Shown: positions 3,014 through 39,925 of the stretch, one piece after another
How positions within the stretch are numbered: position 1 is the first letter of the stretch
How the letters are laid out: the number at the start of each line of letters is the position of its first letter
Source: Pararhizobium sp. YC-54
Lineage (GTDB): Bacteria > Pseudomonadota > Alphaproteobacteria > Rhizobiales > Rhizobiaceae
Length of the DNA stretch: 64,000 nucleotides
Direction of reading: 5' to 3'
Assembly: GCF_025847205.1 (NCBI RefSeq)
Contig: NZ_JAOYTH010000020.1
Coordinates: forward strand, 46,208-110,207
Notes under the pieces: generated by a model
Databases searched by the model: none
What the model was told of the DNA's origin: nothing
The model's input: only the letters and a program-made list of their open reading frames with translations
Program-made: the position numbers and the translations under genes

Positions 3014-3030
3014 CTGGAGGCCGATCAGCC

Positions 3031-3708: not shown

Positions 3709-3713
3709 AAGGC

Positions 3714-4577: not shown

Positions 4578-5053
4578 TGGACACCGTGCTTTCCCGTTCG
4601 CGCGCCTTGCGACCCGTCCGTATTTTTGCCGTAGCCTTTGGTTTCGCCATCCTTCTTTCCGGATGCCAGTCGATGGGAACCGATGGCCTCGCCGTCAGCA
4701 ACGCGCCGCCAGAAATATCCGGTCCCGCTGCCAGCGCCATCGCCGGCGATATGGTGAGCCGTCTCGCCGAACAGATCGGGCCGGGAAAGGCGACCGTCGC
4801 GCTGAAGGCGGATGCCTCCCCCTTCGGCCAGGCGCTGGAAGCGGCGCTGAAGGGATGGGGCTATGCCGTCATCACTGACCAGAAGACGGATAGCGGCGCG
4901 ACGGTCATCCCGCTCGCCTATGTGATCTTGACTGTTGATGGTCAGGTGCTGGCGCGCCTTTCGACAAACAGTGTCGAGCTCGGCCGTGCCTATTCTGTGA
5001 CAGTGAACGGTGCGACGCCAGCGAGCGCCCTGTCGCTGATGCGGCGTGGGTGA
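4577..5053 (+). CDS. trbH: TrbH, lipoprotein of the mating-pair apparatus
   Basis: 158-residue predicted lipoprotein: a positively charged N-terminus, a hydrophobic stretch and a lipobox ILLSGC with the lipidated Cys at about residue 28. The start ATG at 4577 overlaps the trbG TAA and is preceded by a strong GGGGAGGGAG site; a longer in-frame start at 4535 lies inside trbG and lacks such a site. Position between trbG and trbI and the small size match TrbH, thought to fill the VirB7-like role in these plasmids. Confidence 0.88.
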
Positions 5054-5064
5054 GGGAGGATCAC

Positions 5065-6411: not shown

Positions 6412-6469
6412 AGGGGGTTGGTTCTGGCTGAGGCCGGAATCGTACGTTAGCGAGCGTTTCTCATTCGCC

Positions 6470-7031
6470 TTAGGTACTTTGACGTCCTAAGGTCCGATAG
6501 ACGGTCGGCCGCGAGATTGCAAACACCTCTGCAAGACCGCTGATCGAATACTCGCCGGTGTCGTGCATGCGCCGCAACTCCTTCTGCTGCCGATCCGATA
6601 ATTTTGGTTTTTTACCCCGTAATTTCCCCTTGGCGCGGGCGATCGCCATCCCTTCACGAGTTCGCATTTTGATGAGGTCGGCCTCGAATTCAGCGAAAGT
6701 GGCAAGAATGTTGAAAAACAATTTGCCCATCGGGTCGGATGGATCATGGACGCTAGCTTCGATCTGCAATTTTATCCAACGCGCGACGAGATCATCACCT
6801 ATTGCGTGCGTCAGAAACGGAGCGGGCAAGGCGGTCCAGCTTCGGTATCGCCGGAACGCACGGCAGCTATTGCATGATCGAGGCCGGGGGTGCCCGGTTC
6901 GTGCCTGTGAAGCCCCGATCTGTGTCGATGCAATCTACCGTGACACCGAACTTGATCGAGGTCTCTTGCTGTACGGCGAGGTCCTGCTTGTCGGTTGAGC
7001 GGCGGGCATAGCCGATCAATGTGTTCGTCAT
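6470..7031 (-). pseudogene. Decayed serine recombinase (resolvase/invertase family)
   Basis: Relic of a small serine recombinase. The N-terminal part starts at the ATG ending at 7031 with the family signature IGYARRSTDKQDLAVQQ (catalytic Ser in RRST) and runs to a stop near 6867. The C-terminal part resumes in other frames (KLDRLARS, then IGDDLVAR...PMGKLFFNILATFAEFEAD...) and ends with a helix-turn-helix (ISRPTVYRTLG). At least three frame changes separate the pieces, and a few conserved residues between the catalytic arm and KLDRLARS are missing, so no functional protein can be made. It sits exactly between the trb operon and the first cargo block, and may be what remains of the element that brought the cargo. 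Confidence 0.82.
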
Positions 7032-7412
7032 ATCAAAAATGTAACGTATGAGGGACCGTCTTTGCAATAAATATAGGACCATCTTAACTTGACAATCGGA
7101 ATCCTGCATTTACTGGACGGAATCTGGAGGTGGCAGAATGTCCGTTGAAACGAACCTCTTTCGGACACGTGAAGTAACGCGCCATTAAGGATGATCATGC
7201 AGGTGCGTTCCAGCTTGTGTAGGAGCGCAAAGTTTCGATATTAAAGTTCTATGCGCCAACCAGCCGGGCAGAAAATTTTTCTGTCTGCGATAATATGCGA
7301 CAACAAAAGCACTGCAAAACGACCGGATTTCGAACGATAAAGATACGGGCTGCGCTGATAATCACTTCCCAGCAGGCTCCGTCCTGCTTAACAATTAAAA
7401 TGGGGAATGAAA
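7032..7412. other. Intergenic region upstream of the ABC transporter operon
   Basis: About 380 bases without a convincing gene, between the recombinase relic and the ehuB-like gene. It is AT-richer than the flanks. A TTGACA at 7089-7094 could serve as a -35 box, but no good -10 box at the usual spacing was recognised. The promoter of the transporter operon is expected here; no operator was identified. Confidence 0.4.
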
Positions 7413-8255
7413 ATGGGTAGACAATCACTTATGGTCGGCCTGTCCGTTGCCATCGCGATGGCCGCATCAGCTCAGGTCAGCGCAGCCGATCTCGAAAGCA
7501 AAGCCAAGACGGATGGTCTCACTTATGCGATCATCAACGCGAAACCTTGGTACTACAACGACGATCAGGGCACGTTAACGGGTGCCGATGTCGAGAACCT
7601 GCGGGCAGCACTGGCAGCCATGGGTATAGATAAGTTCAATCCCACCGTTACTGAATGGTCCTCCATCGTTCCAGGCGTAAAGTCGGGCCGCTTTGATATC
7701 GGCGCTGGGATGTACATCACCCCAGAGCGCTGCAAGGAAGTCGCGTTCACGATGCCGTATGCGGTCATTATACCGGCGCTGGTGGTCAAGAAGGGCAATC
7801 CGGATGGGGTCAAGAGCTGGGAAGACCTAAAGAACAAGCCCGAGCTAAAAGCAGGAGCCTATGCAGGCGGTGCCGAAGTCGGCTATATGGTTAAGTCAGG
7901 TGTCGCTAACGAGAACATCGTGCAGCTTCCCGATCAGAATTCTCTTGTTCAGGCTCTGGTCAATAGCCAGATCTCGGCCTTCAACGTGGGTGCAGGACAA
8001 GCCGCCGAGATAGTGGCGCAGGTCGAAGGCCTGGAGGTGGTTAAAGAGTTCAATCCGCCAGAATGGTCGTTTTCGTACAACGGGTGGCCGTTCGCAAAAG
8101 CAAATGCAGATTTCGTTGCGAAACTGAACGAGCAGATCCGCAAACGCGTAGAGTCTGGCGAAGCTGAAGCGACCAATCAGAAATTTGGCGTGAAGGGTGC
8201 GGATCTAAGACCCTTTCTGAAGAAAGTGAACATCAACGACATCTGCTCACGCTGA
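7413..8255 (+). CDS. ehuB: ABC transporter substrate-binding protein, EhuB-like (polar amino acid/ectoine type)
   Basis: Periplasmic binding protein of the SBP_bac_3 superfamily, about 280 residues. A signal peptide ends near AQVSA-ADLE. The segment GMYITPERCKEVAFTMPYA and the final Cys near the C-terminus resemble EhuB, the ectoine/hydroxyectoine receptor of Sinorhizobium, although general polar amino acid receptors share much of this. The ATG at 7413 is preferred over the one at 7407 because GGGGA lies 6 nt upstream of it. First gene of a four-gene importer operon with two permeases and an ATPase. The ectoine assignment leans on the more EhuC-like permease and on the DoeA-like enzyme nearby. 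Confidence 0.6.
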   Translation: MGRQSLMVGLSVAIAMAASAQVSAADLESKAKTDGLTYAIINAKPWYYNDDQGTLTGADVENLRAALAAMGIDKFNPTVTEWSSIVPGVKSGRFDIGAGMYITPERCKEVAFTMPYAVIIPALVVKKGNPDGVKSWEDLKNKPELKAGAYAGGAEVGYMVKSGVANENIVQLPDQNSLVQALVNSQISAFNVGAGQAAEIVAQVEGLEVVKEFNPPEWSFSYNGWPFAKANADFVAKLNEQIRKRVESGEAEATNQKFGVKGADLRPFLKKVNINDICSR

Positions 8256-8281
8256 ACTTCAGTAGCTTAAGGTAATCGGTA

Positions 8282-8923
8282 GTGCGGTTTTCAAGCGAAC
8301 TGTTTTGGGCAACGCTGTCTACGATAGAATTAGCGGGGCTCTGTATCGTATTGTCTTCGCTGATCGCCCTGTTAGCTGGTTTGGCGCTTATGTCGCCAAA
8401 CCGCTACCTGCGCGGTTTCGTTCGGACTTACGTAGAGGTAGTCAGAGGCACCTCGCTCGTCGTTCAGCTTTTCTGGCTGTATTTCGTACTGCCGGAGCTT
8501 GGCATTATACTCAACGGTTTTACCGTGGGCATCATCGGACTGTCCTTGAACGGGGGAGCCTATGGAGCTGACGTGTTCCGGTCGGCCTTCGAAGCGGTTC
8601 CCCGAGGGCAAAGCGAGGCAGCGTACGCTCTGTGCATGCCCCGCCGCATGGCCCTTTGGACAATCCTTACGCCGCAGGCTTTGGTGAGGCTTATACCGCC
8701 GTGGTCGAACGCTATGATCGATATCCTGAAGGGAACATCCATCTTCTCGATGATCGGCATCTATGAGCTGACGTTCGCGAGCACGCAGTTGAACGCCACG
8801 TTGTTTCAGCCGTTCAAAATCTTCCTCATTGTGGCTGCGATCTACCTCGTCCTTTCTCAGATTATCGCTCGCTCGATGTTTTTCATGGAAGGCGTAGCGC
8901 GAAGACGGATGGGGCTAAGGTAA
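8282..8923 (+). CDS. ehuC: ABC transporter permease, EhuC-like
   Basis: 213-residue inner-membrane permease of the His/Glu/Gln/Arg type, with about five transmembrane helices and the EAA loop (EAVPRGQSEAAYAL) that docks the ATPase. The stretch VVQLFWLYFVLPELG and the later PPWSNAMIDILKGTS are very like EhuC of the ectoine/hydroxyectoine importer, as I recall that family. Translation starts at GTG 8282. The stop overlaps the next ATG (TAATG), so the two permeases are made together. Confidence 0.65.
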   Translation: MRFSSELFWATLSTIELAGLCIVLSSLIALLAGLALMSPNRYLRGFVRTYVEVVRGTSLVVQLFWLYFVLPELGIILNGFTVGIIGLSLNGGAYGADVFRSAFEAVPRGQSEAAYALCMPRRMALWTILTPQALVRLIPPWSNAMIDILKGTSIFSMIGIYELTFASTQLNATLFQPFKIFLIVAAIYLVLSQIIARSMFFMEGVARRRMGLR

Positions 8924-9582
8924 TGAGCGAGTTTTTCTCCATAGACTTCGCCATCTCGATACTGCCGAGGCTTCTTTACGCCGCGGGAGTCACGGTTCAG
9001 TTGACCCTGACCAGCTTTGCTATTGCGATGGTCGTTGGCTTGCCATTGGCGCTTGGTCGGCTGAGTTCCTTTAAGATCGTCTCCTCCGCGGCGGGGGCGT
9101 TCATTGAGTTTGTCCGTGGAACACCGATGCTTGTGCAGCTGTTCCTGGTTTTCTTCGGCTTGCCGAAGCTGGGCTTGTCGTTGCAACCCGTCACCGCTGG
9201 TGTGTTGACGTTGAGCGTGCATTACGGATGCTACATCGCTGAGGTATACCGAGGCAACCTGCAGGCAATTAATCCCACCCAGAGAGAGGCTGCCTGGTCG
9301 TTGAGCCTGTCACCGTTCGACACATTCAAGAGCGTTCTGATACCGCAGACGATCCCGCCGATGATACCAATTCTCGGGACGTATCTAATCGGGATGTTCA
9401 AAGACGCGGCGCTTCTTGCGAGCATTTCGGTATTCGAGCTCCTGACGACGGCCAAACTCATCGGCACCGAAAGCTTTCGCTACACGGAGCCGATGACTAT
9501 CGCAGGCCTGCTCTTTCTTTTCATGTCTCTTGCGGCTGCGGGACTGACCCGCCTGCTTGAGCGGCAATGGACGAATCGATGA
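8923..9582 (+). CDS. ehuD: ABC transporter permease, EhuD-like
   Basis: 219-residue second permease of the importer, again with about five helices and an EAA loop (AINPTQREAAWSLSLS). The usual FVRGTPMLVQLFLVFFGLP signature of polar amino acid permeases is present. It overlaps the preceding permease by one base and the following ATPase gene by 16, so the four genes form a tight operon. The EhuD label follows from position next to the EhuC-like protein; on its own it could be any HisM/HisQ-type permease. Confidence 0.6.
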   Translation: MSEFFSIDFAISILPRLLYAAGVTVQLTLTSFAIAMVVGLPLALGRLSSFKIVSSAAGAFIEFVRGTPMLVQLFLVFFGLPKLGLSLQPVTAGVLTLSVHYGCYIAEVYRGNLQAINPTQREAAWSLSLSPFDTFKSVLIPQTIPPMIPILGTYLIGMFKDAALLASISVFELLTTAKLIGTESFRYTEPMTIAGLLFLFMSLAAAGLTRLLERQWTNR

Positions 9583-10406
9583 CCCCCCACGTTTTCCTAC
9601 CCACTACGAAGGATGCTTTCGTCGTAGCAAGCGAAGTCCCGGCATGTGAGTTCATCCATGTGGGGAAACAGTTTGGCACGCTGGAGGTGCTGCGCGACAT
9701 CAACCTTGAGGTGAGGCGCGCGGAGAAGGTCGCCCTGATCGGCCCGTCCGGCTCCGGAAAATCGACGCTGTTGCGGACCCTGATGACGCTTGAGACAATC
9801 AATGCAGGCGAGATCAAGGTGAACGGCGAAACCTTGACCAATGGCTCCTGGACACCTGATCAGCAGCGCTCAGACAAGCCCGCTGCCCGTGCTCGGCGCC
9901 GGCGCATCGGTATGGTCTTCCAACAGTTCAACCTGTTCCCGCATATGACCGCTGCCGAGAACGTCGCCGTGGCACCGCGGAAGGTGCTCGGCCTCCCGCG
10001 CAACGAGGCTGAGGAGCGGGCGCAGAAGTACCTGTCGATGGTCGGGATGAGCGCCAAGGCGAACGAACTGCCCCTGAGGCTTTCCGGTGGCCAGCAGCAG
10101 CGCGTCGCCATAGCACGATCGCTGGCGATGGAGCCTGAGATCATGCTTTTCGACGAAGTCACTTCGGCGCTTGACCCCGAACTCGTCGGCGAAGTCCTTG
10201 CCGTGCTTCGCAAGCTCGGTGAGGAGAGTGATCTGACCATGCTGCTCGTGACACACCAGATGGAGTTCGCGCGTAACTTCGCCGACAGGGTCGCCTTCCT
10301 CTGGCAGGGTCAGATCCACGAAGTCGCCGAAGCAAAGTCGATCTTCGATAACCCGACCGAAGAACGCACGAGGCAGTTCCTGCGTGCAGTTCTAGAATCT
10401 CACTAG
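9567..10406 (+). CDS. ehuA: ABC transporter ATPase, EhuA-like
   Basis: 279-residue ATP-binding subunit of the importer. Walker A is GPSGSGKST, the ABC signature LSGGQQQR, Walker B IMLFDEVTSALDPE, with a Q-loop FQQFNLFPHMT. A short insert around ARARRR separates Walker A from the Q-loop, as in EhuA and HisP-like proteins. Starts at 9567 or at the in-frame ATG 9579, which overlaps the permease stop as ATGA. It is the last gene of the operon. Confidence 0.7.
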   Translation: MDESMTPHVFLPTTKDAFVVASEVPACEFIHVGKQFGTLEVLRDINLEVRRAEKVALIGPSGSGKSTLLRTLMTLETINAGEIKVNGETLTNGSWTPDQQRSDKPAARARRRRIGMVFQQFNLFPHMTAAENVAVAPRKVLGLPRNEAEERAQKYLSMVGMSAKANELPLRLSGGQQQRVAIARSLAMEPEIMLFDEVTSALDPELVGEVLAVLRKLGEESDLTMLLVTHQMEFARNFADRVAFLWQGQIHEVAEAKSIFDNPTEERTRQFLRAVLESH

Positions 10407-10478
10407 TCGCCCGCGAAGAACGACGATTAGCCGGTTGCGGTTGGAATATTGGGGCTGGCAGTTTGTATAAAGCGAGAG

Positions 10479-10706
10479 CTACGCAGATGATTGGCAGGCA
10501 AACCTGATCCCTTCGAGGAAGCGGCGGAAGTTGTAGCCCACGGCTGCGAGGACAGCGTTGGCGGCGTCGCCGTTTGGTCTCGCAAGATGGTTGCGGCCAA
10601 TGCGGTGGTCTTCTTTTAAATGTCTAATGACGTGTTCAATGGCGGATCGTCTTCGCATCAGGCGTTCTAGGTGTTCGGTTATCCCGCGTTTCTGACGCAA
10701 CTGCAC
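10479..10706 (-). pseudogene. IS5-family transposase C-terminal remnant
   Basis: About 75 codons that match the C-terminal end of IS5-family DDE transposases: a charged stretch (RRRSAIEHVIRHLKEDHRIGRN) followed by GDAANAVLAAVGYNFRRFLEG. The catalytic N-terminal part and inverted repeats are not visible, so it is a dead fragment. It lies between the transporter operon and the GlxA-type regulator gene, and marks past insertion activity in this cargo block. The rest of the stretch 10707-10903 holds nothing I recognise apart from the presumed promoter of the regulator gene. Confidence 0.75.
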
Positions 10707-10903
10707 GGCAAGGGCCGCCTTCCGATCGGGTCGACCATTAAAAAAGCAAAAGCCTTACCGGACGATTTTTCGATGGGCGTGTCGAGCGTGGCGAAGATCG
10801 GTTCTTTCGACTGATACATACATCCAAGTATCGGCGCTTGGGCACTTGTGATCGGACACAACACGATTTTAGTTAATGATCGCCGAGGCGAGGGAGTGAT
10901 ACG

Positions 10904-11944
10904 ATGCGACATGAGCAGGCTAGGAAGGATGACGCGAAGGGTCAGGTAAGCCGGCTCAAGGTCGGTTTCGTGATTTCCCGCTCATTCACGCTTTCCGCCT
11001 TTGCCATGTTCATCGATACGTTGCGTCTTGCAAGCGACGAGCAGGACCGGTCCGGCAGGATCAGGGCCGATTGGCAAGTGTTGGGCAGCACGCGTCATCT
11101 GATCGCGTCGAGCTGTGGCGTGCGGGTCGCACCAACATCGGATTTCGTTGATCCCAGCCGCTTCGATTACATCGTCGTCGTCGGGGGCTTGCTGAACAGG
11201 GAAGAGCCTGTCGATCGGGAAACCGTAGCGTTTCTGAAGCTAGCCGACACCAGGAAGGTGCCTTTGCTCGGTTTGTGCACCGGCACCTTCATTCTCGCCG
11301 AGGCCGGCCTGATGAAAAACCATGAGGTCTGCGTGAGCTGGCTGCATGCCAGGGCGTTCAAGGAGCGGTTTCCGGATCTTTCTGTCCGCGGGGACAGGAT
11401 CTTCAATCTCGATCGACGCCGTGGATCGTGCGCCGGCGGCAGCAGCGCGGCTGATATGGCAGCCGCTCTCGTGCGACGTCATATCAGCCCGGAGGCCGAG
11501 CGCAACGCGCTCGAAGTGTTGCAAATCGAAAAGGCACGCTCTCCTCTGGAAATCCAACCACGCCGGCCCCTTTTTTACGAAGAGTACAAGGATTCACGAC
11601 TGCAGGCGGTGATGATCATGATGGAGCAGAATCTGGACGGTAACATGCCGATTGTCCAGCTGGCGGCATCCGTGGGGGTGACGCGTCGGCAGTTGGAGCG
11701 GATTTTCGAGAAGGAGGCTGGGATGTCGCCTGCGCGTGCCTATGCACGTGTTCGGCTGGAGCGTGCCAAGGTGCTACTGTCGCAGACCAAGCTACCGCTT
11801 ATTGATATCGCGATGGATGTTGGCTTTAACAGTGCCTCGCAATTCACACGCTCATTCCGCAAGGAGTTCGGACAGACACCGTCACTGGTGCGTTCTGCAC
11901 TGCAAGTGAACCGCGCCGGGTTTGCCGGAGACCGTTTGGTTTAA
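10904..11944 (+). CDS. GlxA-family transcriptional regulator (DJ-1/PfpI domain + AraC HTH)
   Basis: 346-residue regulator: residues about 18-200 form a class-I-glutamine-amidotransferase-like (DJ-1/PfpI) sensor domain with the nucleophile-elbow sequence LLGLCTGTFILAEAG, and residues about 240-330 carry two AraC-type helix-turn-helices (IVQLAASVGVTRRQLERIF and LIDIAMDVGFNSASQFTRSFRKEFG). Relatives control catabolism of choline, betaine, carnitine, arginine and similar nitrogen compounds. It is convergent with the M24 hydrolase gene and likely regulates the surrounding catabolic cluster. A close relative sits at 48275-49309. Confidence 0.85.
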   Translation: MRHEQARKDDAKGQVSRLKVGFVISRSFTLSAFAMFIDTLRLASDEQDRSGRIRADWQVLGSTRHLIASSCGVRVAPTSDFVDPSRFDYIVVVGGLLNREEPVDRETVAFLKLADTRKVPLLGLCTGTFILAEAGLMKNHEVCVSWLHARAFKERFPDLSVRGDRIFNLDRRRGSCAGGSSAADMAAALVRRHISPEAERNALEVLQIEKARSPLEIQPRRPLFYEEYKDSRLQAVMIMMEQNLDGNMPIVQLAASVGVTRRQLERIFEKEAGMSPARAYARVRLERAKVLLSQTKLPLIDIAMDVGFNSASQFTRSFRKEFGQTPSLVRSALQVNRAGFAGDRLV

Positions 11945-11991
11945 GTTATGAATCCCGGCACTGCGGGTGCGGTGCCGGAATATTATCAGGA

Positions 11992-13170
11992 CTAAACCGT
12001 GAAGAGGCGTCGGTCCACATTGGTCAGGCGCTCGCCGCCGCGCTCGGTGACAACGAAGGATTCCGAGATGGCAACGCCGTAGTCCTCCAGCCATACGCCC
12101 GACTGGAAGTGAAAACACATTCCTGACTGAAGAACGGTCTTCTCACCTGGACGGATGCTCACGGTCTTCTCGCCCCAGTCCGGCGGGAAGTTAATACCGA
12201 TCGAGTAGCCTACGCGGCTGTCCTTGCGGTAACCGTACTTGCGGAGGATGGCCTGCCACGTAGCCTCGACATCTTCTACCACAGTGCCTGCCTTGGCAGC
12301 CGCCAAGGCAGCATCTCCGCCCTCGACGATCGCGTCCGCAAGGCGCCTGACATCATCGCCCGGCTTGCCGATCGAAATCGTGCGCGACAGGGGCGCATGG
12401 TAGTGGCGTCGAACACCCGCCAGCTCCATCACCACCAACCCGCTGTCAGGCAGCGGCGAGCTGGTCCAGGTAAGGTGCGGGGTGCTGGTGCCCTCGCCCA
12501 CCTGGATAAGGGGCACGCAGCTCGCATAGTCTCCGTGCTTCCCGTCGATGCCCCGAACCTGAGATTGATAGACCTCTGCGATGATCTCGTTCTCCGGGAC
12601 GCCGGGCCTCAGCAGCCCGATGGCCTCGTTCATGACCTTAGTGACCAAGTGTCCGGCCTCGCGCATATAGACGAGTTCTGCGTCGGACTTGACCAGACGC
12701 GCCCAATTGACCAATTCGCGGCTGTCCGTGATTGTCGCCAACGGTAGTCCCTTGACGATATGGTGGTGGGCTCGGGCGGTGTAATAGAGTGCATCCAGCT
12801 CCACACCAACGCGCGCCTTTTCCCAGCCGCGGGACTTGATCAGGTCACACAGCTCGTCGAACGCATGTTCCTCTGGATGATGGACGAGGCGTTCGGAGAA
12901 GGAGATTATGTTGTCAGCAGAAAGGTCAGTCGTGATCACGGCGGACTTCGCATCCTGAGCGCGACCGAACCAAATCGGTTCATCCTGATCGACATGAACG
13001 ACCACGGCCTGCGGGGTGTAGAATGACCAGCCGTCAAACCCGGTGAGCCAACTCATGTTGGCGGGGTCCTCGCAGATGAGCAGATCTATGCCTGCTTTGG
13101 CCATACGGCCTTTCACATCCGCTACCCGTCCCTGATATTCAGCAGCGCTAAAAGCCTTTTCGAACGCCAT
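11992..13170 (-). CDS. doeA: M24-family hydrolase, ectoine hydrolase (DoeA/EutD)-like
   Basis: 392-residue protein with the pita-bread (M24 aminopeptidase/creatinase) fold. Signature stretches NMSWLTGFDGWSFYTPQ, HYHAPLSRTISIGKP and FPPDWGEKTVSIRPGEKT correspond closely to DoeA of Halomonas and EutD of Sinorhizobium, which open the ectoine or hydroxyectoine ring to N-acetyl-diaminobutyrate species. Other members are Xaa-Pro peptidases or creatinases, so the substrate is an inference. The gene lies 45 nt behind the aldehyde dehydrogenase gene on the same strand and is probably cotranscribed with it. Confidence 0.65.
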   Translation of the reverse strand: MAFEKAFSAAEYQGRVADVKGRMAKAGIDLLICEDPANMSWLTGFDGWSFYTPQAVVVHVDQDEPIWFGRAQDAKSAVITTDLSADNIISFSERLVHHPEEHAFDELCDLIKSRGWEKARVGVELDALYYTARAHHHIVKGLPLATITDSRELVNWARLVKSDAELVYMREAGHLVTKVMNEAIGLLRPGVPENEIIAEVYQSQVRGIDGKHGDYASCVPLIQVGEGTSTPHLTWTSSPLPDSGLVVMELAGVRRHYHAPLSRTISIGKPGDDVRRLADAIVEGGDAALAAAKAGTVVEDVEATWQAILRKYGYRKDSRVGYSIGINFPPDWGEKTVSIRPGEKTVLQSGMCFHFQSGVWLEDYGVAISESFVVTERGGERLTNVDRRLFTV

Positions 13171-13215
13171 AGTTTTATATCCCTTCTTACTCGATATTTA
13201 TTTCAATGGGTGTCA

Positions 13216-14718
13216 TCAAACGTAAAGGTCGTTGCCGACCGCCGACCATATCGTTTTGGTTTGCTGATACTGCTGCATGGCCTCGAGACCCTTGTCTCGC
13301 GCAGACGAACCCGAGAGCTTATATCCACCGAAAGGCGTCGTAACATCGCCCTCAGAGAAAGAGTTTATGGACACAGTCCCGCAAGGTATCCGGCGCGCGA
13401 GAGCGTAGCCCTTCGAGAAGTCTCGCGTGAAAATCGAGGCGTGGAGGCCATATTTGGTGTCACATGCAATCCGGAGTGCCTCCTCGGCCCCATTGGCAGC
13501 GATGACACCCAAGACGGGGCCGAAGATCTCTTCCTTGGCAATCGTCATATCGGGTGTCATGTCATTGAACAGGATCGGAGAAACAAAAAAGCCCTTCGAC
13601 GGCGCCCCTGGACCTTCAATCACGGTCGCGCCCTCTTTTCGACCCAAGGCGATGAAATCGGCCACACGGTCTCGGTGGCTCCTCGTGATCATCGGACCCA
13701 GCTCCGTCTGTGGATCCAGCGGATTCCCCACTTTAATCGCTTTGAAACGCACCTGCAGCTTTTCCACGAACTCGTCGCGTCGTGACACATCGACAAGCTG
13801 ACGCATGTTTGCCGAACAATTCTGGCCCGCATTCCAATATGCTGCGAGTGCTGCGTGGTTGATTAGGTCATCATTGATCTCAGCATCTGCCAAAACGATC
13901 AGTGGGCTCTTGCCACCCATCTCCAAAGCAACGCGCTTCAGGTTGCTCTCCGAAGCGTACTGCAGAAAGAGCGCCCCCACCTCCGACGAGCCAGTGAAGG
14001 AGACCGCGTCGACATCTCCATGAAGACCTAGTGCCCTTCCAGCGACCTCGCCCGTTCCCGGCACGACGTTAAATACGCCGGAGGGCAAGCCCGCCTCGAG
14101 AGCGAGTTCGGCTAGCCTGATCGAAGTCAAAGGCGATTGCTCAGCTGGCTTCAGAACGACAGAGCAACCGGATGCCAATGCTGGAGCAACTTTCCAGGCA
14201 GTAATGAGAAGAGGAAAATTCCAAGGCAGGACCAGACCTACAACGCCGACGGGCTCCTCGATCACCAATGCCAAAACGTCGTTGTCCGTTGGCGCAACCT
14301 TGCCGTAGGTCTTGTCCAGCAGTTCAGCGTACCAGCGGAAAAACTTCGGGACCTCGTTTCCGATCTCATTGAGACAATCCGTGATGGGCTTTCCCGTGTC
14401 GATCGACTCCAGTACCGACAACTCTTCTGAATTCGCCCTTATCAGATCAGCCAGCTTGAACAGGACATCCTTACGCTTCGAGATGTTTGCCCTTGACCAT
14501 GAACCGCCTTCAAATGCCCTCCGCGCCGATCTCACAGCTTCATCAATGTCGTCGGCTCCGCAGCTCGTCACCGAGGTGAGCACAGCTTCAGTGGCTGGAT
14601 TTACTGTCTCGAAGCTTTGCCTCGACTTTGCATCAACAACCTCGCCACCAATGACGGCATTTCGTGGAAGACTGATTTTAGAAGCAATCTCTTCATAACG
14701 GGCTGTAAGTGTGGCCAT
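13216..14718 (-). CDS. NAD(P)-dependent aldehyde dehydrogenase
   Basis: 500-residue member of the aldehyde dehydrogenase superfamily. Visible landmarks: oxyanion Asn in PWNFPLL, cofactor motif FTGSSEVG, general-base Glu in LEMGGKSP, catalytic Cys in NAGQNCSANM, and the C-terminal PFGGYKLSGSS. The type resembles PuuC/betaine-aldehyde enzymes and DoeC (aspartate-semialdehyde oxidation in ectoine breakdown). It heads a two-gene operon with the M24 hydrolase and is divergent from the threonine-aldolase-like gene across a 222-nt promoter region. It may oxidise the aldehyde released by that enzyme. Confidence 0.8.
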   Translation of the reverse strand: MATLTARYEEIASKISLPRNAVIGGEVVDAKSRQSFETVNPATEAVLTSVTSCGADDIDEAVRSARRAFEGGSWSRANISKRKDVLFKLADLIRANSEELSVLESIDTGKPITDCLNEIGNEVPKFFRWYAELLDKTYGKVAPTDNDVLALVIEEPVGVVGLVLPWNFPLLITAWKVAPALASGCSVVLKPAEQSPLTSIRLAELALEAGLPSGVFNVVPGTGEVAGRALGLHGDVDAVSFTGSSEVGALFLQYASESNLKRVALEMGGKSPLIVLADAEINDDLINHAALAAYWNAGQNCSANMRQLVDVSRRDEFVEKLQVRFKAIKVGNPLDPQTELGPMITRSHRDRVADFIALGRKEGATVIEGPGAPSKGFFVSPILFNDMTPDMTIAKEEIFGPVLGVIAANGAEEALRIACDTKYGLHASIFTRDFSKGYALARRIPCGTVSINSFSEGDVTTPFGGYKLSGSSARDKGLEAMQQYQQTKTIWSAVGNDLYV

Positions 14719-14940
14719 GACGTTCCCTATTATTTTCTGCGACTTGCCGCGCGTTAGGCGCGAGAGCTGCCGGAAGTTTCATCGAGATTCGACGGAAACT
14801 CCGTCCGTTAACGCGAGCCAACGCGGAAAAACTGCATCGAATTTAACCTCAATCCAGAACGTATGGGCGCTGACAGTTTGCGACTGTGCTCACGATGCGC
14901 CCTTAAGGGCTAGACTAAGATTTAGAGAAGGGTTGGATAG

Positions 14941-15984
14941 ATGGACTTTCGCAGTGACAACGTTTCGAGCGTGTCTCCGGAAATCCTTGATGGTCTGCTT
15001 CGCACAAACCATGGGACTAGCACATCATACGGTGATGATAGCCTTACGCATGACGTGACGGCTAGGCTCCAAGAAATTTTCGAACACCCCGTGCGCTTTT
15101 TCCCTGTTCTAACCGGGACAGCGGCTAATGCATTGGGTCTATCAATCATCACTCCGCCTTACGGCGGGATATACTGCTCTGAGGACGCACATATTTACTA
15201 TGACGAATGTGCCGCCCCGGAGTTCTATACTGGTGGAGCGAAGCTTATCGGCCTCCCCAGCGTAAACGGTCGCTTCTCACAAGAAACGGTCGATGTCGCT
15301 GTGAAGAAGGGCTTCGACAATGGAGTGCATCATGCGAAACCGTCTGCTATCAGCATTACCCAAGCTACCGAGTTGGGTACCGTTTACTCTCCCGGCCAGA
15401 TTGGGGAGATATCGAACGTCTCGAAGAAATTCGGCATGTATCTACATATGGACGGAGCGCGCTTCGCGAACGCCGTTGCATCTCTAAACGTCTCCCCGGC
15501 AGAACTTACCTGGAAAGCCGGAGTCGACGTTTTGTGCTTTGGAGCTACGAAAAACGGTGCGCTTTCCGCTGAGGGCGTTCTTGTCTTCAACAAAGACATT
15601 GGCGAGGACCTGGCTTATCGCGTGAAGCGGTCCGGACATCTCACATCAAAATCTCGATTCATCTCAGCGCAGTGGCTTACGTACCTTTCTAACGACCTCT
15701 GGTTGAAAAATGCCCGTTGGGCAAACAAGATGGCACAACGCCTGTCGACCGAGCTTGGCCGCCTCCCATGCGCCAAGATCGTCTACCCCACTGAAGCAAA
15801 TGAAGTCTTCGTGTCAGTCAACAATCGGACGCTTGAAGCCCTGACGAGCAAAGGGGTCAAGTTTTCGCTCTGGAGCGCCGGCGAAACGAACGTTCTTCGC
15901 TTCGTGACATCCTTCAATACACCGGAAGCGGATGTCGATGCCTGCATCCGCGCATTCGCAGCGGACACTCTGATCGCTAGCTGA
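14941..15984 (+). CDS. Low-specificity threonine-aldolase-like PLP enzyme
   Basis: 347-residue fold-type I PLP enzyme of the LtaE (beta-eliminating lyase/threonine aldolase) family, which cleaves beta-hydroxy-alpha-amino acids to glycine plus an aldehyde. The PLP lysine is in CFGATKNGALSAEG, the cofactor-stacking region is PVLTGTAANALGL, and the conserved Asp precedes GARFANA. Starts at ATG 14941. First gene of the rightward catabolic operon, followed by a DadA-like oxidase; this pairing suggests glycine or another small amino acid is processed further. Real substrate unknown. Confidence 0.8.
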   Translation: MDFRSDNVSSVSPEILDGLLRTNHGTSTSYGDDSLTHDVTARLQEIFEHPVRFFPVLTGTAANALGLSIITPPYGGIYCSEDAHIYYDECAAPEFYTGGAKLIGLPSVNGRFSQETVDVAVKKGFDNGVHHAKPSAISITQATELGTVYSPGQIGEISNVSKKFGMYLHMDGARFANAVASLNVSPAELTWKAGVDVLCFGATKNGALSAEGVLVFNKDIGEDLAYRVKRSGHLTSKSRFISAQWLTYLSNDLWLKNARWANKMAQRLSTELGRLPCAKIVYPTEANEVFVSVNNRTLEALTSKGVKFSLWSAGETNVLRFVTSFNTPEADVDACIRAFAADTLIAS

Positions 15985-16040
15985 CCACCTTCAAACGACC
16001 AAAACCAAGGCTGCCGCCATATTGTTTCCAGGAGAGTGAA

Positions 16041-17294
16041 TTGCCTCATATAGTTGTGATTGGCGCTGGTATTACTGGCGTAGCAACTGCCTATGCCCTG
16101 TTGCAACAAGGCTTCAACGTAACAGTATTGGAGCGGCAGCGTTATGCAGCGATGGAAACATCGTTTGCCAACGGTGGACAGCTTTCTGCGAGCAATGCGG
16201 AAGTCTGGAACCACTGGTCCACCGTCCTCAAGGGCATACGGTGGATGGCTACGCGGAATGCTCCGCTTCTCATGAATCCAAGACCTTCCTGGCACAAGTA
16301 CAGTTGGCTTGCTGAATTCGTTTCCGGAATCGCGCGGTATCGAGATAACACGATTGAGACAACTCGATTGGCCATTGCCGCGCGCGATCACATGTTCACG
16401 ATTGCGAAGGACGAAGGCATCGAGTTCGACCACGTGCGTCGTGGCATTTTGCACATCTACTGGGACAAACCGGGCTTTGATCATGCGACGAGGGTCAATC
16501 GGCTTCTCGTTGAGGGTGGTCTTGACCGAAGACCTGTCACGCCTTCAGAGCTCGCAGATATTGAGCCTACACTTCACGGAAACTTTTACGGAGGTTTCTA
16601 CACGCCGTCCGACTCGACCGGTGACATTCATAAATATACGACTGGGCTCGCCAAAGCCTGTGTCAGGTATGGCGGAAAATTCATATATGATGCGGATGTC
16701 GTTGGGTTCGTTCGACGTAACGGCCAATGGACGACACGCTATCTCGCAGCACCGAGCGATGGTTCGACCGAAGCCAGTATTTCCTCGGACGGCATCGTCA
16801 TCTGTGCCGGCTCAGGGAGTCGGAAGTTTGCAGCTATGTTGGGTGACCGAGTCAACGTATACCCCGTCAAAGGCTACTCCATTACCGTTCACTTAGATGA
16901 CGAGGTGTCGCAAGCCGCTGCGCCGTGGGTAAGTCTGTTGGACGACAAGGCAAAAATCGTCACCAGTCGCCTTGGCGCGAACCGATTCAGGGTGGCTGGC
17001 ACTACTGAGTTCAACGGCCTGAATAGAGATATTCGCCACGACCGTGTGAAGCCGTTGGTGCAGTGGACACGCAGTCTTTTCCCTCAGGTAAGCACCGATC
17101 GTGTCGTGCCTTGGGCAGGCCTCCGACCAATGATGCCCAACATGATGCCTCGTTTTGGAGCGGGACGCTCCAATGGCATTTTCTATAACACTGGTCACGG
17201 ACATTTGGGCTGGACGCTGTCAGCTGCGACATCGGCATTGCTCGCTGAAACCATCGCGAAACGTATGCTCATTGAGCGCAACATGGCCGCCTAG
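16041..17294 (+). CDS. FAD-dependent D-amino acid dehydrogenase/glycine oxidase-like (DadA family)
   Basis: 417-residue DAO-type flavoprotein with an N-terminal dinucleotide fold (VVIGAGITGVATAYAL) and the C-terminal NTGHGHLGWTLSAATSALLAE typical of DadA. Such enzymes oxidise D-amino acids or small amines to oxo acids and pass electrons to the membrane. Start is TTG at 16041 with GGAGAG 4 nt upstream; no in-frame ATG or GTG start is nearby. Lies 56 nt after the threonine-aldolase-like gene, so one operon is likely. It could oxidise glycine to glyoxylate, but that is inference. Confidence 0.78.
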   Translation: MPHIVVIGAGITGVATAYALLQQGFNVTVLERQRYAAMETSFANGGQLSASNAEVWNHWSTVLKGIRWMATRNAPLLMNPRPSWHKYSWLAEFVSGIARYRDNTIETTRLAIAARDHMFTIAKDEGIEFDHVRRGILHIYWDKPGFDHATRVNRLLVEGGLDRRPVTPSELADIEPTLHGNFYGGFYTPSDSTGDIHKYTTGLAKACVRYGGKFIYDADVVGFVRRNGQWTTRYLAAPSDGSTEASISSDGIVICAGSGSRKFAAMLGDRVNVYPVKGYSITVHLDDEVSQAAAPWVSLLDDKAKIVTSRLGANRFRVAGTTEFNGLNRDIRHDRVKPLVQWTRSLFPQVSTDRVVPWAGLRPMMPNMMPRFGAGRSNGIFYNTGHGHLGWTLSAATSALLAETIAKRMLIERNMAA

Positions 17295-17343
17295 CGAGAC
17301 AACACCATGAAGAAACTCGATAGCGTTACATACACGAATTCGA

Positions 17344-17577
17344 TTTCAATATTTGGCGGGAATTGCCCGATTTCATCCGTAAGAAAGTCCTGCCCGGCAG
17401 CAGAACGCCAGCGACCCTCTTTACACGGCGATGGCGCCCAATTCGGTCGCCTTCCTGGCCGCCTGCGAGCTCGTGTTCAAGGGCCGCGAGCAGCCGAGCG
17501 GCTATATAAGCCGGCGCCCTGCATTTCGCAGAACTGAGCGAAAACCTCAGCAAACGAACCCTGTGAGACTTTCATGA
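17344..17577 (+). pseudogene. Malate synthase G C-terminal relic
   Basis: In one frame the DNA encodes [35 protein letters not shown] and [10 protein letters not shown], which resembles the extreme C-terminus of malate synthase G (glcB). An in-frame TAA lies at the left side (after FARFHP-like codons) and a few residues appear lost after MAPN. The frame ends in a TGA that overlaps the ATG of the following GlcG/HbpS gene as ATGA. In glc operons glcG and glcB are neighbours, which supports the assignment, but the match is from memory of the family and is short. Confidence 0.45.
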
Positions 17578-18005
17578 ATTCAATCAGTTTAACCCTTGCC
17601 AACTCCATCATCGGTCGTTGCTTTGCCCACGCAAAGGAAATGGGCTTCAAGCCGCTCAGTGTTGCCGTTCTAGATGCCGGGGGGCATCTAGTCGCCTTTC
17701 AGAAGCAAGACGGGGCATCTATGCTTCGATTTGAGATTGCATTTGGTAAGGCCTACGGTGCCTTGTCCGTCGGATTCGGTTCCCGTTGGCTCGAGAAGGC
17801 CGCAATTGACCGCCCTCATTTCGTTGCGGGTCTCACCGCCGTGTCTGGTGGGCAGATAATTCCGGTTCCGGGTGGTGTGCTCATTAGGGACCAAGACGGG
17901 GTCCTTATAGGTGCTGTTGGCGTGACCGGCGACACCTCGGATAACGACGAGGCTTCTGCAACGTCAGCGATTATAAGCGTCGGATTCGTATCTCAGGCGG
18001 ACTAG
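17574..18005 (+). CDS. GlcG/HbpS (DUF336) family protein
   Basis: 143-residue protein of the GlcG/HbpS/PduO-C family. Visible family pattern: [15 protein letters not shown] [18 protein letters not shown], the central [12 protein letters not shown], and [27 protein letters not shown]. Family members bind haem or cobalamin-like ligands or accompany glycolate/diol metabolism; the enzymatic role is not settled. It starts 4 nt inside the malate-synthase relic and would be transcribed from the threonine-aldolase promoter or its own. Confidence 0.8.
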
Positions 18006-18371
18006 TGAGAGACAGCATCGCGTCAGTTGATTGACGTGGTGCTGTCTGTCTGTCGGCGAACTCCCCGACCAGAATAAATTGCGCAGAGCGTGGCCAGACG
18101 GACCCGACGGGTGCGAAACCGATTGCACGCTTTGTTAAAATGACACGGTTACGATATCACCGAGGGCACTGGTGCGCGCAACGTTCAACGTGTGATCCTC
18201 AACTTCTACACGCTCCGAGATTAAGGAATTTCTGCACAACATGGGATTGATTTCCTGCGATCCAACCCGGGCGACATCCGCTTCGCTTTTCCGACAGTCG
18301 GATGGTAAAACTTTGCCGCAATGGAAATCCGTTCAACAACATGCTTTGCAAATTTCCCGACAGGCCGCTCG
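18006..18371. other. Intergenic region before the Lrp-type regulator gene
   Basis: About 365 bases with no credible reading frame. It should contain the promoter for the Lrp-type regulator; I saw no strong hairpin, repeat or recognisable operator in it. Confidence 0.4.
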
Positions 18372-18851
18372 ATGAAACTAGACAATTATGATATCAAGAT
18401 CCTGCAAGCCATTCAGAAAAATGGAAGAATCACGAAAGCAAAACTTTCGGAGTTGGTCGGTTTGTCGGTGAGTCCATGTTTCGAAAGGCTCCGACGCCTC
18501 GAGCGGGCCGGCATAGTCCGAAGATACTTGGCTGACGTGGACATCGACCGCCTCTTCAGGTCGATCACGATGGTCGTAGAGTTTACCTTGCGTGACCATA
18601 CTACCGCGAGCGTTTTGCAATTTGAGACAGCGATTATAAAATGCCGGGAAGCTGTGGAATGTCATGGCGTGAACGGCCAAATCGACTACGTGGTAAAGTT
18701 TGTTTTCAGGGACATCGACCACTACCAAAGTGTGATAAGCAATCTAATCGAATTAAACGTCGGTATCGACAAGGTCACCACCTTCATTGTTACCAAGAAC
18801 GTAAAGCGCTTCAGCGAATATCCGATCGACGATTTGCATTCGGCGTCCTGA
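18372..18851 (+). CDS. Lrp/AsnC-family transcriptional regulator
   Basis: 159-residue regulator: N-terminal winged HTH (DNYDIKILQAIQKNGRITKA then LVGLSVSPCFERLRRLERAG) and a C-terminal RAM ligand-binding domain. The ATG at 18372 is chosen over the in-frame start at 18321 because MKLDNYDIKIL is the usual Lrp N-terminus. Ectoine-degradation clusters carry an Lrp-type regulator (DoeX/AsnC), so this gene adds to the resemblance. It probably senses a catabolic intermediate and controls the neighbouring operons. Confidence 0.85.
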   Translation: MKLDNYDIKILQAIQKNGRITKAKLSELVGLSVSPCFERLRRLERAGIVRRYLADVDIDRLFRSITMVVEFTLRDHTTASVLQFETAIIKCREAVECHGVNGQIDYVVKFVFRDIDHYQSVISNLIELNVGIDKVTTFIVTKNVKRFSEYPIDDLHSAS

Positions 18852-19016
18852 TTTTCGCGAAAGTCAGCGGAACTATGATAGAAGTTTCCCGGCAAAGATT
18901 TTTTCGACTTTGGGCACCATTCAGAAAATTGCACTGTCCCGGCGGCTGCTTTCGGAACTCTCCGAGCTTCAGGATGGTCCTAAATGCCTCGATTGTAACT
19001 CAAGGCAGGATGTCCG

Positions 19017-20192
19017 ATGCGCGACAACCAGATATTGTCAGCAACCGAGGCTGCAGCGGTCCTCGAACTGCGGCACGCGATGCATCGTCGCCCAGAACTG
19101 TCCAACCAAGAGACAGCAACCCAGCAACTGATCCTTTCGATCCTAGATCGCTTTGGCCTTCGCGAAACCAAAACGTTCCACAAGACGGGCGTCTATGTGG
19201 ACATAGTGGGCAACGCGGAGGGTAAGGGGAAAGTGGTCGCAGTGAGGGGAGACATTGATGCCCTACCTATCCACGAGGAGCGAGATGATCTCCCATTCCG
19301 GTCTGAGGTACCCGGACTGATGCACGCTTGCGGACACGATGTACATGCCTCCGTCGCGCTAGGCACGGCATTGGCGTTTCATCGCCTGCGCGACAATTTC
19401 GCCGGGCGGTTGCGGGTATTCTTTCATCCGGCCGAAGAAGCTGAACCCGTTGGTGGACGTTCCGTTAGACAGGAGGCGTTGCTGGATGGGATCGATCATT
19501 CGGTGGGCTTCCACGTCACACCCGATTTGCCAACTGGTACGTATGCAGCCCGCCCCGGTGCCGCAACGAAATCAGCCGATCAGTTCACCGTCACTTTCAC
19601 AGGAACCAGTAGTCATGGAGCGATGCCCTATCGCGGTGTGGATGCAATCTCGGTCGCCGCCGCATTTATCAACGAAGTGCAGAAACTCGTTTCTCGCGAA
19701 GTGTCCACGGAGGACGGTTCAGTCGTCTCGATAGGCACCATTCGGGGTGGTGAGGCTGCCAACATCATTTGTCCTTTAGTGGTGATGGAAGGCACCATTC
19801 GGACCAAGCGTACCGAAACCCGTGCGATGCTGTGCCGACGCGTTCGCGAGATTGCCGAGGGCATTGCCGTACTGCATCGGGCATCGGCCGTCTGTCATTT
19901 GACCGAGGGCGAGCCCCCCGTTATCAATGACGCGGATATGGCTGCGCGGTTCCAAAGCTTGGTCAGGGACACGCTTGGAGCTGAAAGTCTCCATGAAGGC
20001 TTGCCCGCTGAAGGGAGCGATGATTTTGGATACTATTCCGAGACCACTCCTTCCTTATATTTCTGGTTCGGTACAGGTGAGAACGGCAAGAGGTCCGGAC
20101 TGCATACGCCGACTTTTGCGGTCTCTGACAGCGTAGTCGTCCCGACCACCGAGCTGGCCGTGCGATACTGCTTTGACCTCATTAGCAGGTAG
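19017..20192 (+). CDS. M20-family amidohydrolase (N-acyl amino acid deacylase-like)
   Basis: 391-residue metallohydrolase of the M20D (hippurate hydrolase/aminoacylase) family. Metal ligands are visible in HACGHDVHASVALG, in FHPAEEAEPVGG and in the C-terminal HTPTF; the dimerisation/lid domain starts with TGTSSHGAMPYRG. ATG 19017 follows an AAGGCAGGA ribosome site. In an ectoine-type pathway it could remove the acetyl group that DoeB removes in Halomonas. It may equally hydrolyse another N-acyl amino acid. Last gene of cargo block 1. Confidence 0.8.
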   Translation: MRDNQILSATEAAAVLELRHAMHRRPELSNQETATQQLILSILDRFGLRETKTFHKTGVYVDIVGNAEGKGKVVAVRGDIDALPIHEERDDLPFRSEVPGLMHACGHDVHASVALGTALAFHRLRDNFAGRLRVFFHPAEEAEPVGGRSVRQEALLDGIDHSVGFHVTPDLPTGTYAARPGAATKSADQFTVTFTGTSSHGAMPYRGVDAISVAAAFINEVQKLVSREVSTEDGSVVSIGTIRGGEAANIICPLVVMEGTIRTKRTETRAMLCRRVREIAEGIAVLHRASAVCHLTEGEPPVINDADMAARFQSLVRDTLGAESLHEGLPAEGSDDFGYYSETTPSLYFWFGTGENGKRSGLHTPTFAVSDSVVVPTTELAVRYCFDLISR

Positions 20193-20564
20193 CTAATACC
20201 AAGGGTCACAGTGTTTGACAGCCACGGCTCGCGCAATCAGCGACGCGTTCAGAGCCGCACCGGTGCGCGGACCTGGTCGCTACAGCGAAGCCTGCACGCG
20301 CCTACCATTTGGACCGAGACCTACCGGACGCCAACAGAAAAGTCGGTTGAGCTTGTAGGATGCTATCGTAGATTTTGATGGGGCAAGTGGGATCCACGGC
20401 ATTTTAAGTTGCGATAAGCGAAAGGGATAACTTATTGCAGCACGGTAGTTCCATAATGAACCTTATACAATCGCTAGTTGCATTTTTGTGCATTTTTGCT
20501 AGATACAGCTTTAACCCTGAAAGGCTCACCGTGACCTGTTCCACCTGACCACATGGAGTAGACA
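20193..20564. promoter_or_regulatory. traR upstream region with a 10-bp tandem repeat
   Basis: 372 bases without a gene between cargo block 1 and traR. At 20479-20498 a ten-base unit, TGCATTTTTG, occurs twice in tandem and is bracketed by GCTAG on both sides. TTGCAT at 20478-20483 and TAGATA at 20500-20505, 16 bases apart, could form a weak promoter for traR. In Ti plasmids traR is driven by opine-regulated promoters; here no opine regulator gene is adjacent, so control is unknown. The left part (20193-20400) shows nothing I recognise. Confidence 0.4.
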
Positions 20565-21269
20565 ATGCAATATTGGCTGGACAAGCTGACCGACCTCACC
20601 GCGCTACAGGGCGACGAGAGCATCCTCAAGCAAGCCCTTGGCAACCTCACCAACGAGGCTGGCTTCGGCGGCTATGCCTACCTTCACATCCAGCCTGGCC
20701 ATACGCTTGCGGTCTCGAACTATCATCCCGAATGGCGGTCGATCTACTTCAAGCAGAAACTCGCGTCCGTTGACCCTGTCGTGAAACGTGCCAAGACCTT
20801 GAAGCAGGCTTTTGTTTGGGGCAACGAGCAGGACAGCACCCGACTTTCGAAAGCCGAGCGTGCCTTCTACGCGCAGGCCGCCGACTTCGGCATCCGCTCC
20901 GGCATTACCATCCCTGTGAGGGCAGCCAACGGGTCGATGTCGATGTTCACCCTTGCATCGGAAAGTCCGGTGCTTGATCTCGATCGCGATATCGATGCCA
21001 TCGCGGCCGCAGCTGCCGTCGGACAACTCCATGCCCGCATGTCCCTTCTGCCACTTACGCCCAGCGCACAGTACCCGGCATGGCTCGACGCGAAGGAAGC
21101 CGCCTATCTTAAATGGATCGCCGTCGGCAAGACCATGGAAGAAGCGGCCGATCTGGAAGGTGTCAAATACAACTCGGTAAAGAGCAAGCTCTACGAGACC
21201 AGGAAACGCCTCGAGATCCACACCATGTCCCATTTGGTCGCTCTGGCGGTCCGCGCAAAACTCATCTGA
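20565..21269 (+). CDS. traR: TraR, LuxR-type quorum-sensing activator of conjugation
   Basis: 234-residue TraR, same length as in Ti plasmids. The acyl-homoserine-lactone pocket residues known from TraR structures are kept: Tyr53, Trp57, Tyr61, Asp70 and Trp85. The C-terminal LuxR-type HTH (about 170-234) includes [21 protein letters not shown]. With its 3-oxo-C8-type signal it dimerises and binds tra boxes such as the one at 27708-27725. The gene is convergent with traM, its antiactivator, with only 9 nt between stops. Ribosome site GGAG 6 nt before the ATG. Confidence 0.96.
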
Positions 21270-30276: not shown

Positions 30277-30446
30277 AAATTCCGCCGGCCGTCGCCGCCC
30301 TATCCACCCTAGTCATCTGCATTCACGCATCTGCGGCTTCGGCGCAGCAGCCGAATAGCTCGAGCAAAGCATTCTCTATTTGCGGAAACGGGCAACGGAT
30401 CACCTGCGTGGTGGATGGGGATACCTTCTGGGAATGCTCATCATAG
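30273..30446 (+). pseudogene. Thermonuclease (SNase family), N-terminal fragment
   Basis: A TTG start overlapping the traG stop opens a 57-codon frame: signal peptide ending ASAASAQQ, then SICGNGQRITCVVDGDTFW, the opening of SNase-like thermonucleases that commonly follow traG on rhizobial plasmids. After GDTFW homology stops abruptly at about 30433 and the frame closes with ECSS. The matching C-terminal end of such a nuclease is found near 49388-49507, so the gene has been split by cargo block 2. Confidence 0.8.
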
Positions 30447-33135: not shown

Positions 33136-33200
33136 CGGCTGCAAGTTCTCCTAAAATGAGGTAGTGGAACGAGTCTGCCCCAAGAGGTAAAGACGATCCG

Positions 33201-33626: not shown

Positions 33627-33627
33627 T

Positions 33628-34923: not shown

Positions 34924-34944
34924 GTCCGCCTGCCTTCTGTCGAC

Positions 34945-39923: not shown

Positions 39924-39925
39924 GT

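Follow-up and report, generated by a model that had tools for sequence, protein, structure and literature searches.

The probable catabolic island and its enzymes

The analysed stretch of Pararhizobium sp. YC-54 (64,000 nucleotides of contig NZ_JAOYTH010000020.1, below "the window") carries an island of plasmid-borne genes that probably import and break down a relative of hydroxyectoine, a salt protectant of bacteria; the compound would be split by a threonine-aldolase-like enzyme. The trb genes ending in trbI, matching the window at 3000–6420 in 267 plasmid records (best identity 90.2%), and a downstream traR place the island on a Ti-type conjugative plasmid, where trbI and traR flank it. Genes were called from open reading frames (ORFs) and hidden Markov model profiles (Pfam, NCBIfam):

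7407–8255 (+): EhuB-like solute-binding protein (SBP_bac_3); TIGR02995, best solved match 2q88, named EhuB in an excerpt of PMC5924519
8282–8923 (+): EhuC-like permease; TIGR03004
8923–9582 (+): EhuD permease; TIGR03003
9567–10406 (+): EhuA ATPase; TIGR03005
10904–11944 (+): GlxA/GbdR-like AraC-family activator with a DJ-1/PfpI-like domain; Pfam, NCBIfam
11992–13170 (-): predicted ring hydrolase M24a, of a clade paralogous to DoeA/EutD; TIGR02993, tree
13216–14718 (-): aldehyde dehydrogenase (ALDH) near the PuuC/KauB aminoaldehyde dehydrogenases; NCBIfam, solved matches
14941–15984 (+): low-specificity L-threonine-aldolase family enzyme (LTA) with pyridoxal phosphate (PLP) lysine Lys204; Beta_elim_lyase, solved matches
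16041–17294 (+): DadA-like D-amino-acid dehydrogenase; NF009074
17574–18005 (+): HbpS-like protein; PF03928, 99.5 bits
18321–18851 (+): Lrp-type regulator, DoeX-like; identity to Lrp genes of related loci
19017–20192 (+): M20 deacylase, candidate N-acetyl deacetylase; TIGR01891
20565–21269 (+): TraR, Ti-type quorum-sensing activator of conjugation, adjoining the module and outside the pathway; NF010444

The GlxA/GbdR-like activator, the HbpS-like protein and traR behind the M20 gene are absent from an earlier note on this DNA, whose Lrp-type regulator and M20 deacylase were both recovered. Its statement that EutABC and DoeD genes are missing here also holds: tblastn with reference proteins (E<=1e-5) gave no match to EutA, EutB, EutC, DoeB or DoeD in the 64-kb window, and EnuR was not found in the window either. 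Promoter- and terminator-like matches were about as frequent as in shuffled sequence.

By profile score and tree position, the hydrolase is DoeA-like and a member of a sister clade, M24a, rather than DoeA/EutD. It reaches 431.9 bits on the DoeA/EutD model TIGR02993 (cut-off 613), is 46% identical to a canonical rhizobial DoeA, and falls in a FastTree tree of M24 proteins with 83 other rows into the M24a clade (84 rows, 99*), separate from the DoeA clade (18 rows, 100*) in which H. elongata DoeA 6twk sits; L100 and L108, labelled DoeA by best match, were placed outside the latter. The likeness to DoeA claimed in the earlier note was thus retained and identity with DoeA itself rejected, owing to the score below the cut-off and the sister clade. 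Glu249 of the window protein aligns with Glu255 of H. elongata DoeA, presumably catalytic, which is among the 97 positions conserved at 90% or more in both groups (44 DoeA and 84 M24a rows). Creatinase-type chemistry was set aside, the window protein scoring 45.4 bits against creatinase 1chm and 359.3 against 6twk.

The threonine-aldolase-like gene of the earlier note was confirmed by its family match and PLP lysine. Solved matches are the L-threonine aldolases 7yvr (331.3 bits), 9l9g and 5vye and the aldolase 1v72, with Lys204 aligned to the PLP-lysine position Lys212 of 1v72. Like 1v72 and 5vye, which we take to be Pseudomonas putida-type low-specificity L-threonine aldolases, the window LTA matches over nearly its whole length and keeps the PLP lysine, its motif and most residues of generic LTAs; unlike them, it is encoded in a solute-catabolic module and differs in some residues, e.g. 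Ser309 for Tyr/His. GntG-type PLP aldolases of the guanitoxin pathway have a threonine-aldolase fold and perform retro-aldol cleavage of an unusual beta-hydroxy amino acid. The chemistry would be alike, but the window LTA is not a member of that group (62.4 bits on NF041359, cut-off 230).

The best NCBIfam model of the ALDH is PuuC (NF007352; 511.9 bits, below the cut-off of 850), and its solved matches include PuuC-type 4lih and KauB 6b4r. Its nearest relatives thus appear to be aminoaldehyde dehydrogenases, in keeping with the aldehyde oxidation proposed in the earlier note. The M20 protein exceeds the cut-off of TIGR01891 (291.9 versus 153.75 bits) and is 72% identical to its Ensifer and 60–61% to its Mesorhizobium homologues; DoeB2 is likewise an M20 amidohydrolase, but the window score on its model NF038260 (223.9 bits) lies far under the cut-off of 550. 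The DadA-like enzyme scores 714.3 bits on NF009074 (cut-off 494). The gene described in the earlier note is thus present; the glycine-to-glyoxylate step assigned to it is unsupported, since no DadA match (E<=1e-60) was found in Ensifer sp. LCM 4579, the closest relative of the window module. Because it is 64.5% identical to the DadA encoded directly before traR on the Agrobacterium plasmid pAtl-11a, the window gene looks like separate traR-linked cargo. For both reasons DadA was rejected as a core member and probably lies outside the core pathway. The "malate-synthase relic" of the earlier note found no backing either: the one ORF tested on that strand (17307–17534) had no Pfam match.

The canonical eut/doe system comprises EhuABCD, EutABC, DoeA/EutD, DoeB/EutE, DoeD, DoeC, DoeX and EnuR. 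The window resembles it in having an Ehu-type importer, a DoeA-like M24 protein, an ALDH, a DoeX-like Lrp and a deacylase. It differs in that the hydrolase comes from the sister clade, EutABC, DoeB, DoeD and EnuR were not found, and an LTA, a PuuC/KauB-like ALDH and a GlxA-type regulator are present. EutABC and DoeD are thus not encoded with the module; a canonical EutABC-DoeAB set lies elsewhere in the genome, at locus L012 (DoeB-DoeA-EutCBA-Ehu-EnuR-DoeX-DoeC). The window Lrp is 43% identical to the Lrp gene of a canonical locus and 84% to the one that adjoins M20 in Ensifer.

Recurrence of the hydrolase and aldolase genes

M24a occurs in 11 genomes of the family, with genomic context covered for two. 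The nearest relative, Ensifer sp. LCM 4579, carries EhuADCB-LTA-ALDH-M24a on one contig at 73–84% identity; a second contig opens with Lrp-M20 and short GlxA-like remnants. A Mesorhizobium NZP2077 plasmid cluster, adjoining DoeB, EutB and EutC, shares M24 (64.5%), GlxA (62%), M20 (60%), and ALDH and LTA (both 47%) with the window. The host genome also holds a third DoeA-like hydrolase (L013 on contig C19), which at 592.8 bits narrowly misses the cut-off. It is accompanied by Ehu genes, by an EnuR-like regulator and by an M20 protein 51% identical to that of the window, which may replace DoeB there.

For a wider comparison, the best 80 of 213 confirmed M24a stretches from a genome-contig scan were combined with the NZP2077 locus, giving 81 loci. 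These are not independent of one another, NZP2077 and L082 being almost the same and L086–L090, all from Mesorhizobium, having an identical M24a in all five. Fifty of the 80 scan loci span at least 14 kb, many contigs being short. Gene presence was judged by our own identity and length thresholds, e.g. 38% for LTA and 50% for DoeD, over 35% of the length. The control consisted of 40 canonical DoeA loci, each taken with some 9 kb of flanking sequence in both directions: 37 of the 44 matches of one search (the own genome, G155 and five matches below the cut-off being excluded) and three from a second search, G513, G522 and G534 being over the cut-off but left out.

LTA was found in 18 of the 81 M24a loci, the truncated LTA of L081 not being counted, versus none of the 40 controls. 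In 15 of the 18 it lies directly behind M24a in the same orientation, the mechanically called ORFs being no more than 36 bases apart (with one 4-base overlap); the exceptions are L030, L039 and L057. DoeB accompanies the pair in 14. As for the remaining four, an M20 of an ArgE-like cluster separates LTA from M24a in L039 and L057, DoeB is encoded at another site of the L034 genome, and L030 has an M20 on another contig. The conserved gene set without eutABC, for which the earlier note had proposed a search, recurs: 16 of the 18 LTA loci lack EutB and EutC, and the other two, NZP2077 and M. loti DSM 2626, hardly differ from one another. Control loci contained DoeB (36/40), EutB (25), EutC (25), DoeD (11) and a dimethylglycine-dehydrogenase-like protein (2), and EutB, EutC or DoeD occurred in 21 of the 63 M24a loci without LTA. 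Mapped on the M24 tree, the LTA label changes eight times, at least five of the changes being forced by starred branches, so M24a and LTA did not stay paired through a single clonal lineage only; the tree does not distinguish gains from losses.

At the genome level, 18 LTA-type genomes were considered, namely those of 17 of the 18 LTA loci (NZP2077 omitted) and of L081. Proteins over the cut-off were canonical DoeA in four (L037, L057, L030, L082), DoeB in 15 and EutC in two (L030, L082), and a DoeD-like protein of more than 50% identity occurred in three (L034, L030, L082). Single absences weigh little, because most of these genomes are metagenome-assembled genomes (MAGs) of unstated completeness. 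The 18 include 11 related MAGs (L062, L065, L071, L072, L073, L075, L077, L079, L081, L091, L097), recorded as Gammaproteobacteria, Acidiferrobacteraceae, Ca. Thioglobus or only Proteobacteria. None of the 11 had canonical DoeA, or EutC at E<=1e-60; their best DoeD-like identities were 40–46%, and DoeB exceeded the cut-off in ten, the other scoring 391.4 against 402.7. Six M24a genomes of the EutBC type (L048, L060, L064, L070, L084, L095) all had EutC (five over the cut-off) and DoeD at 65–73%, with DoeB over the cut-off in only two. What is observed is thus the gene content, the family assignments, the recurrence of hydrolase, deacetylase and LTA, and the absence of EutBC and DoeD from most such loci and genomes examined; this is the gene set predicted by cleavage of a 3-hydroxy-diamino acid.

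Two further arrangements were seen. L062, L071, L073, L077 and L097 carry an EutA-like protein and two PhyH oxygenases directly before DoeB-M24a-LTA, suggesting oxidative steps ahead of ring opening; assignment of the L062 PhyH proteins to EctD was set aside, as they reach 36.6 and 34.9 bits against the top-scoring EctD entry. Another rhizobial plasmid cluster (L011, L020, L021) combines a second-type M24, a small ORF with an amidase, sarcosine oxidase, LTA, a threonine-dehydratase-like protein and PurU; FolD and RidA occur in L011 and L021, and Ehu genes were seen in L011 and L020. The LTA of this cluster forms a separate clade in the LTA tree.

Proposed route and competing readings

The reading to which we give about an even chance is a hydrolase-deacetylase-aldolase module that degrades an ectoine-type tetrahydropyrimidine with a beta-hydroxyl group, the likeliest candidates being 5-hydroxyectoine, a close relative or a stereoisomer. 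Hydroxyectoine itself as the substrate is less certain than the branch as such, and the substrate, regiochemistry, regulation and all reactions are predicted from gene content. EhuBCDA would import the solute, and M24a would open the ring to an N-acetyl-3-hydroxy-2,4-diaminobutyrate-like product. M20, in whose place most LTA-type relatives have DoeB, would take off the acetyl group. The LTA would then split the free beta-hydroxy amino acid into glycine and aminoacetaldehyde, and the PuuC/KauB-like ALDH would oxidise the aminoaldehyde, with the GlxA-type and Lrp regulators controlling the module. Being a beta-hydroxy alpha-amino acid, 3-hydroxy-2,4-diaminobutyrate (hydroxy-DABA) would be open to retro-aldol cleavage by a threonine aldolase, in line with established PLP chemistry. 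If the acetyl group sits on the alpha nitrogen, deacetylation has to precede the LTA, an order with which the frequent occurrence of DoeB or M20 agrees.

According to the excerpts of two reports, hydroxy-DABA occurs at a low level in cells of Ruegeria pomeroyi on 5-hydroxyectoine (PMC8739950, PMC13188858), so that the proposed aldolase substrate is a plausible metabolite (PMC13188858). EutABC is described as required for hydroxyectoine use in this organism, with the precise activities stated as unknown (excerpts of PMC8739950), and eutA as missing from many catabolic clusters (excerpts of PMC5924519). A methanotroph DoeB, 22% identical to the H. elongata enzyme, is described as needed in vivo for Nalpha-acetyl-2,4-diaminobutyrate deacetylation (excerpt of PMC7192451); we infer that it may be of the M20 kind. 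Searches of the open PMC set listed no paper that, judged by title and the beginning of the abstract, joins hydroxyectoine to threonine-aldolase cleavage, and none on its conversion to glycine and aminoacetaldehyde or on ectoine catabolism with sarcosine oxidase and a Xaa-Pro-type enzyme.

Several observations weigh against this reading. The four importer subunits do not all exceed their TIGR cut-offs: EhuA (TIGR03005, 347.9 versus 345.4 bits) and EhuD (TIGR03003, 224.1 versus 205.2) do, but EhuB (TIGR02995, 166.2 versus 190.9) and EhuC (TIGR03004, 174.6 versus 196.95) fall short, so that the EhuBCDA-like importer of the earlier note stands as four genes with two of them under the cut-off. Aligned to 2q88, the window protein reads W, W, Y at what we take to be the aromatic box of EhuB (F, Y, F) and has alanine at the presumed glutamate. 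At 16 positions that are conserved in either group, DoeA and M24a have different residues. As many as 42 of the 81 M24a loci have neither LTA nor EutB/C/DoeD, and many LTA-type operons hold genes outside the proposed pathway: of the 18 LTA loci, 8 and 7 have PhyH oxygenases of one kind and the other, 8 encode a gamma-lyase-like enzyme, and two enolase-superfamily enzymes occur in 8 and 7. In the LTA tree, which left out L019, L145, L142 and L082 and the too short LTAs of L097 and L081, the window LTA groups with that of Ensifer (100/100*), and neither belongs to the clade formed by 15 DoeB-type LTAs (99/95*), although a single clade of both was not rejected (p-AU 0.193); in the window type, the LTA may have been recruited independently or long ago. 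In R. pomeroyi, hydroxy-DABA seems to be rapidly turned into DABA rather than cleaved (excerpt of PMC8739950).

Canonical DoeA and EutC, moreover, coexist with the window-type module in both genomes in which it was seen, so that hydroxyectoine would be handled twice. The aldolase route of the earlier note gains from the recurrent M24a, LTA and deacetylase genes, with EutBC and DoeD mostly missing, and is weakened as regards hydroxyectoine. Coexistence with the canonical genes would be accounted for if the solute were an N-methylated or otherwise modified ectoine-like cyclic amidine, which M24a opens and many relatives demethylate, the LTA branch handling the beta-hydroxylated member. N-demethylating-type oxidases were identified in 17 of the 81 M24a loci (15 dimethylglycine-dehydrogenase-like by family and solved matches, two SoxA) versus two of the 40 controls. 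In four rhizobial plasmid loci (Shinella, R. sullae, S. chiapasense, S. terangae), M24a is accompanied by a second M24 and by SoxB/SoxA, and in the two of them from Sinorhizobium this set adjoins DoeA, DoeB, EutB, EutC and PurU. Such a demethylase is nevertheless absent from 17 of the 18 loci with LTA, the window yielded none, and we know of no natural N-methylated ectoine, which leaves this explanation unlikely. The oxidases and the canonical DoeA and EutC together are the reason why the solute may be a relative of hydroxyectoine.

Marginally less probable still is that the module serves an unrelated compound derived from threonine or another beta-hydroxy amino acid, either N-acylated or cyclic, with M24 and M20 of the peptidase/acylase type and the LTA giving glycine and a simple aldehyde. 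M24 and M20 are broad families, the M20-DadA-traR arrangement on pAtl-11a is a different module, the window LTA is rather generic in its residues, and LTAs of about 50% identity are widespread (at E<=1e-95 in 90 of 385 genomes of the class, the own included). The Ehu-type importer, DoeA-like hydrolase and DoeX-like Lrp, however, point to ectoine-type solutes, as do DoeB, EutB and EutC in related M24a clusters. Ordinary ectoine catabolism, with M24a as a spare ectoine hydrolase and the LTA as an unrelated neighbour, is improbable. The 46% identity to canonical DoeA and the shared conserved positions favour it, but the LTA is confined to M24a loci in the comparison with the controls and usually lies directly downstream, and 15 of the 18 LTA-type genomes lack a DoeD-like protein above 50% identity.

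Plasmid setting and biological meaning

TraR exceeds its model cut-off (NF010444, 433.4 versus 250 bits) and follows the M20 gene on the same strand (19017–21269) after a gap of 372 bases. A catabolic gene lies just before traR on other Ti-type plasmids too, nagA in L202 and DadA in L203, an arrangement that would suit a coupling of conjugation to a nutrient; the location beside traR likewise hints at nutrient-linked conjugation. Opine modules of Ti plasmids drive traR. The window resembles them in having catabolic genes ahead of traR on the same strand; it differs in the 372-base gap, and the traR link was seen in the window and not in the Ensifer relative.

At the left edge of the island (6470–7109, -) two serine-recombinase (resolvase) fragments occupy separate ORFs, likely a decayed mobile element, and a DDE transposase fragment (10479–10706, -) lies between EhuA and the GlxA-type regulator. 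A second cargo island (30441–49309) holds a betaine/choline-type ABC importer, a short-chain dehydrogenase/reductase, a GbdR-like activator, an enolase-superfamily enzyme like cis-3-hydroxyproline dehydratase and another protein of the cis-3-hydroxyproline-dehydratase family; it resembles betaine or hydroxyproline-type catabolism.

A bolder proposal, which we put forward tentatively and hold to be rather less probable than the module itself, is a second, retro-aldol route for hydroxyectoine-type solutes. Ring opening by M24a, deacetylation by DoeB or M20 and cleavage by LTA into glycine and aminoacetaldehyde would bypass EutABC, DoeD and aspartate. The route would extend across proteobacterial lineages, including uncultured groups whose PhyH-type oxygenases might hydroxylate ectoine first to make it cleavable, and would have spread to a conjugative plasmid of rhizobia, with a position at traR as opine modules have. 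If true, this would mean a testable use of hydroxyectoine-type solutes without EutABC or DoeD, with glycine and an aminoaldehyde as products instead of aspartate, and would give a function to a hydrolase clade that scores below the DoeA-model cut-off and occurs in rhizobia and uncultured bacteria, some of it on conjugative plasmids.

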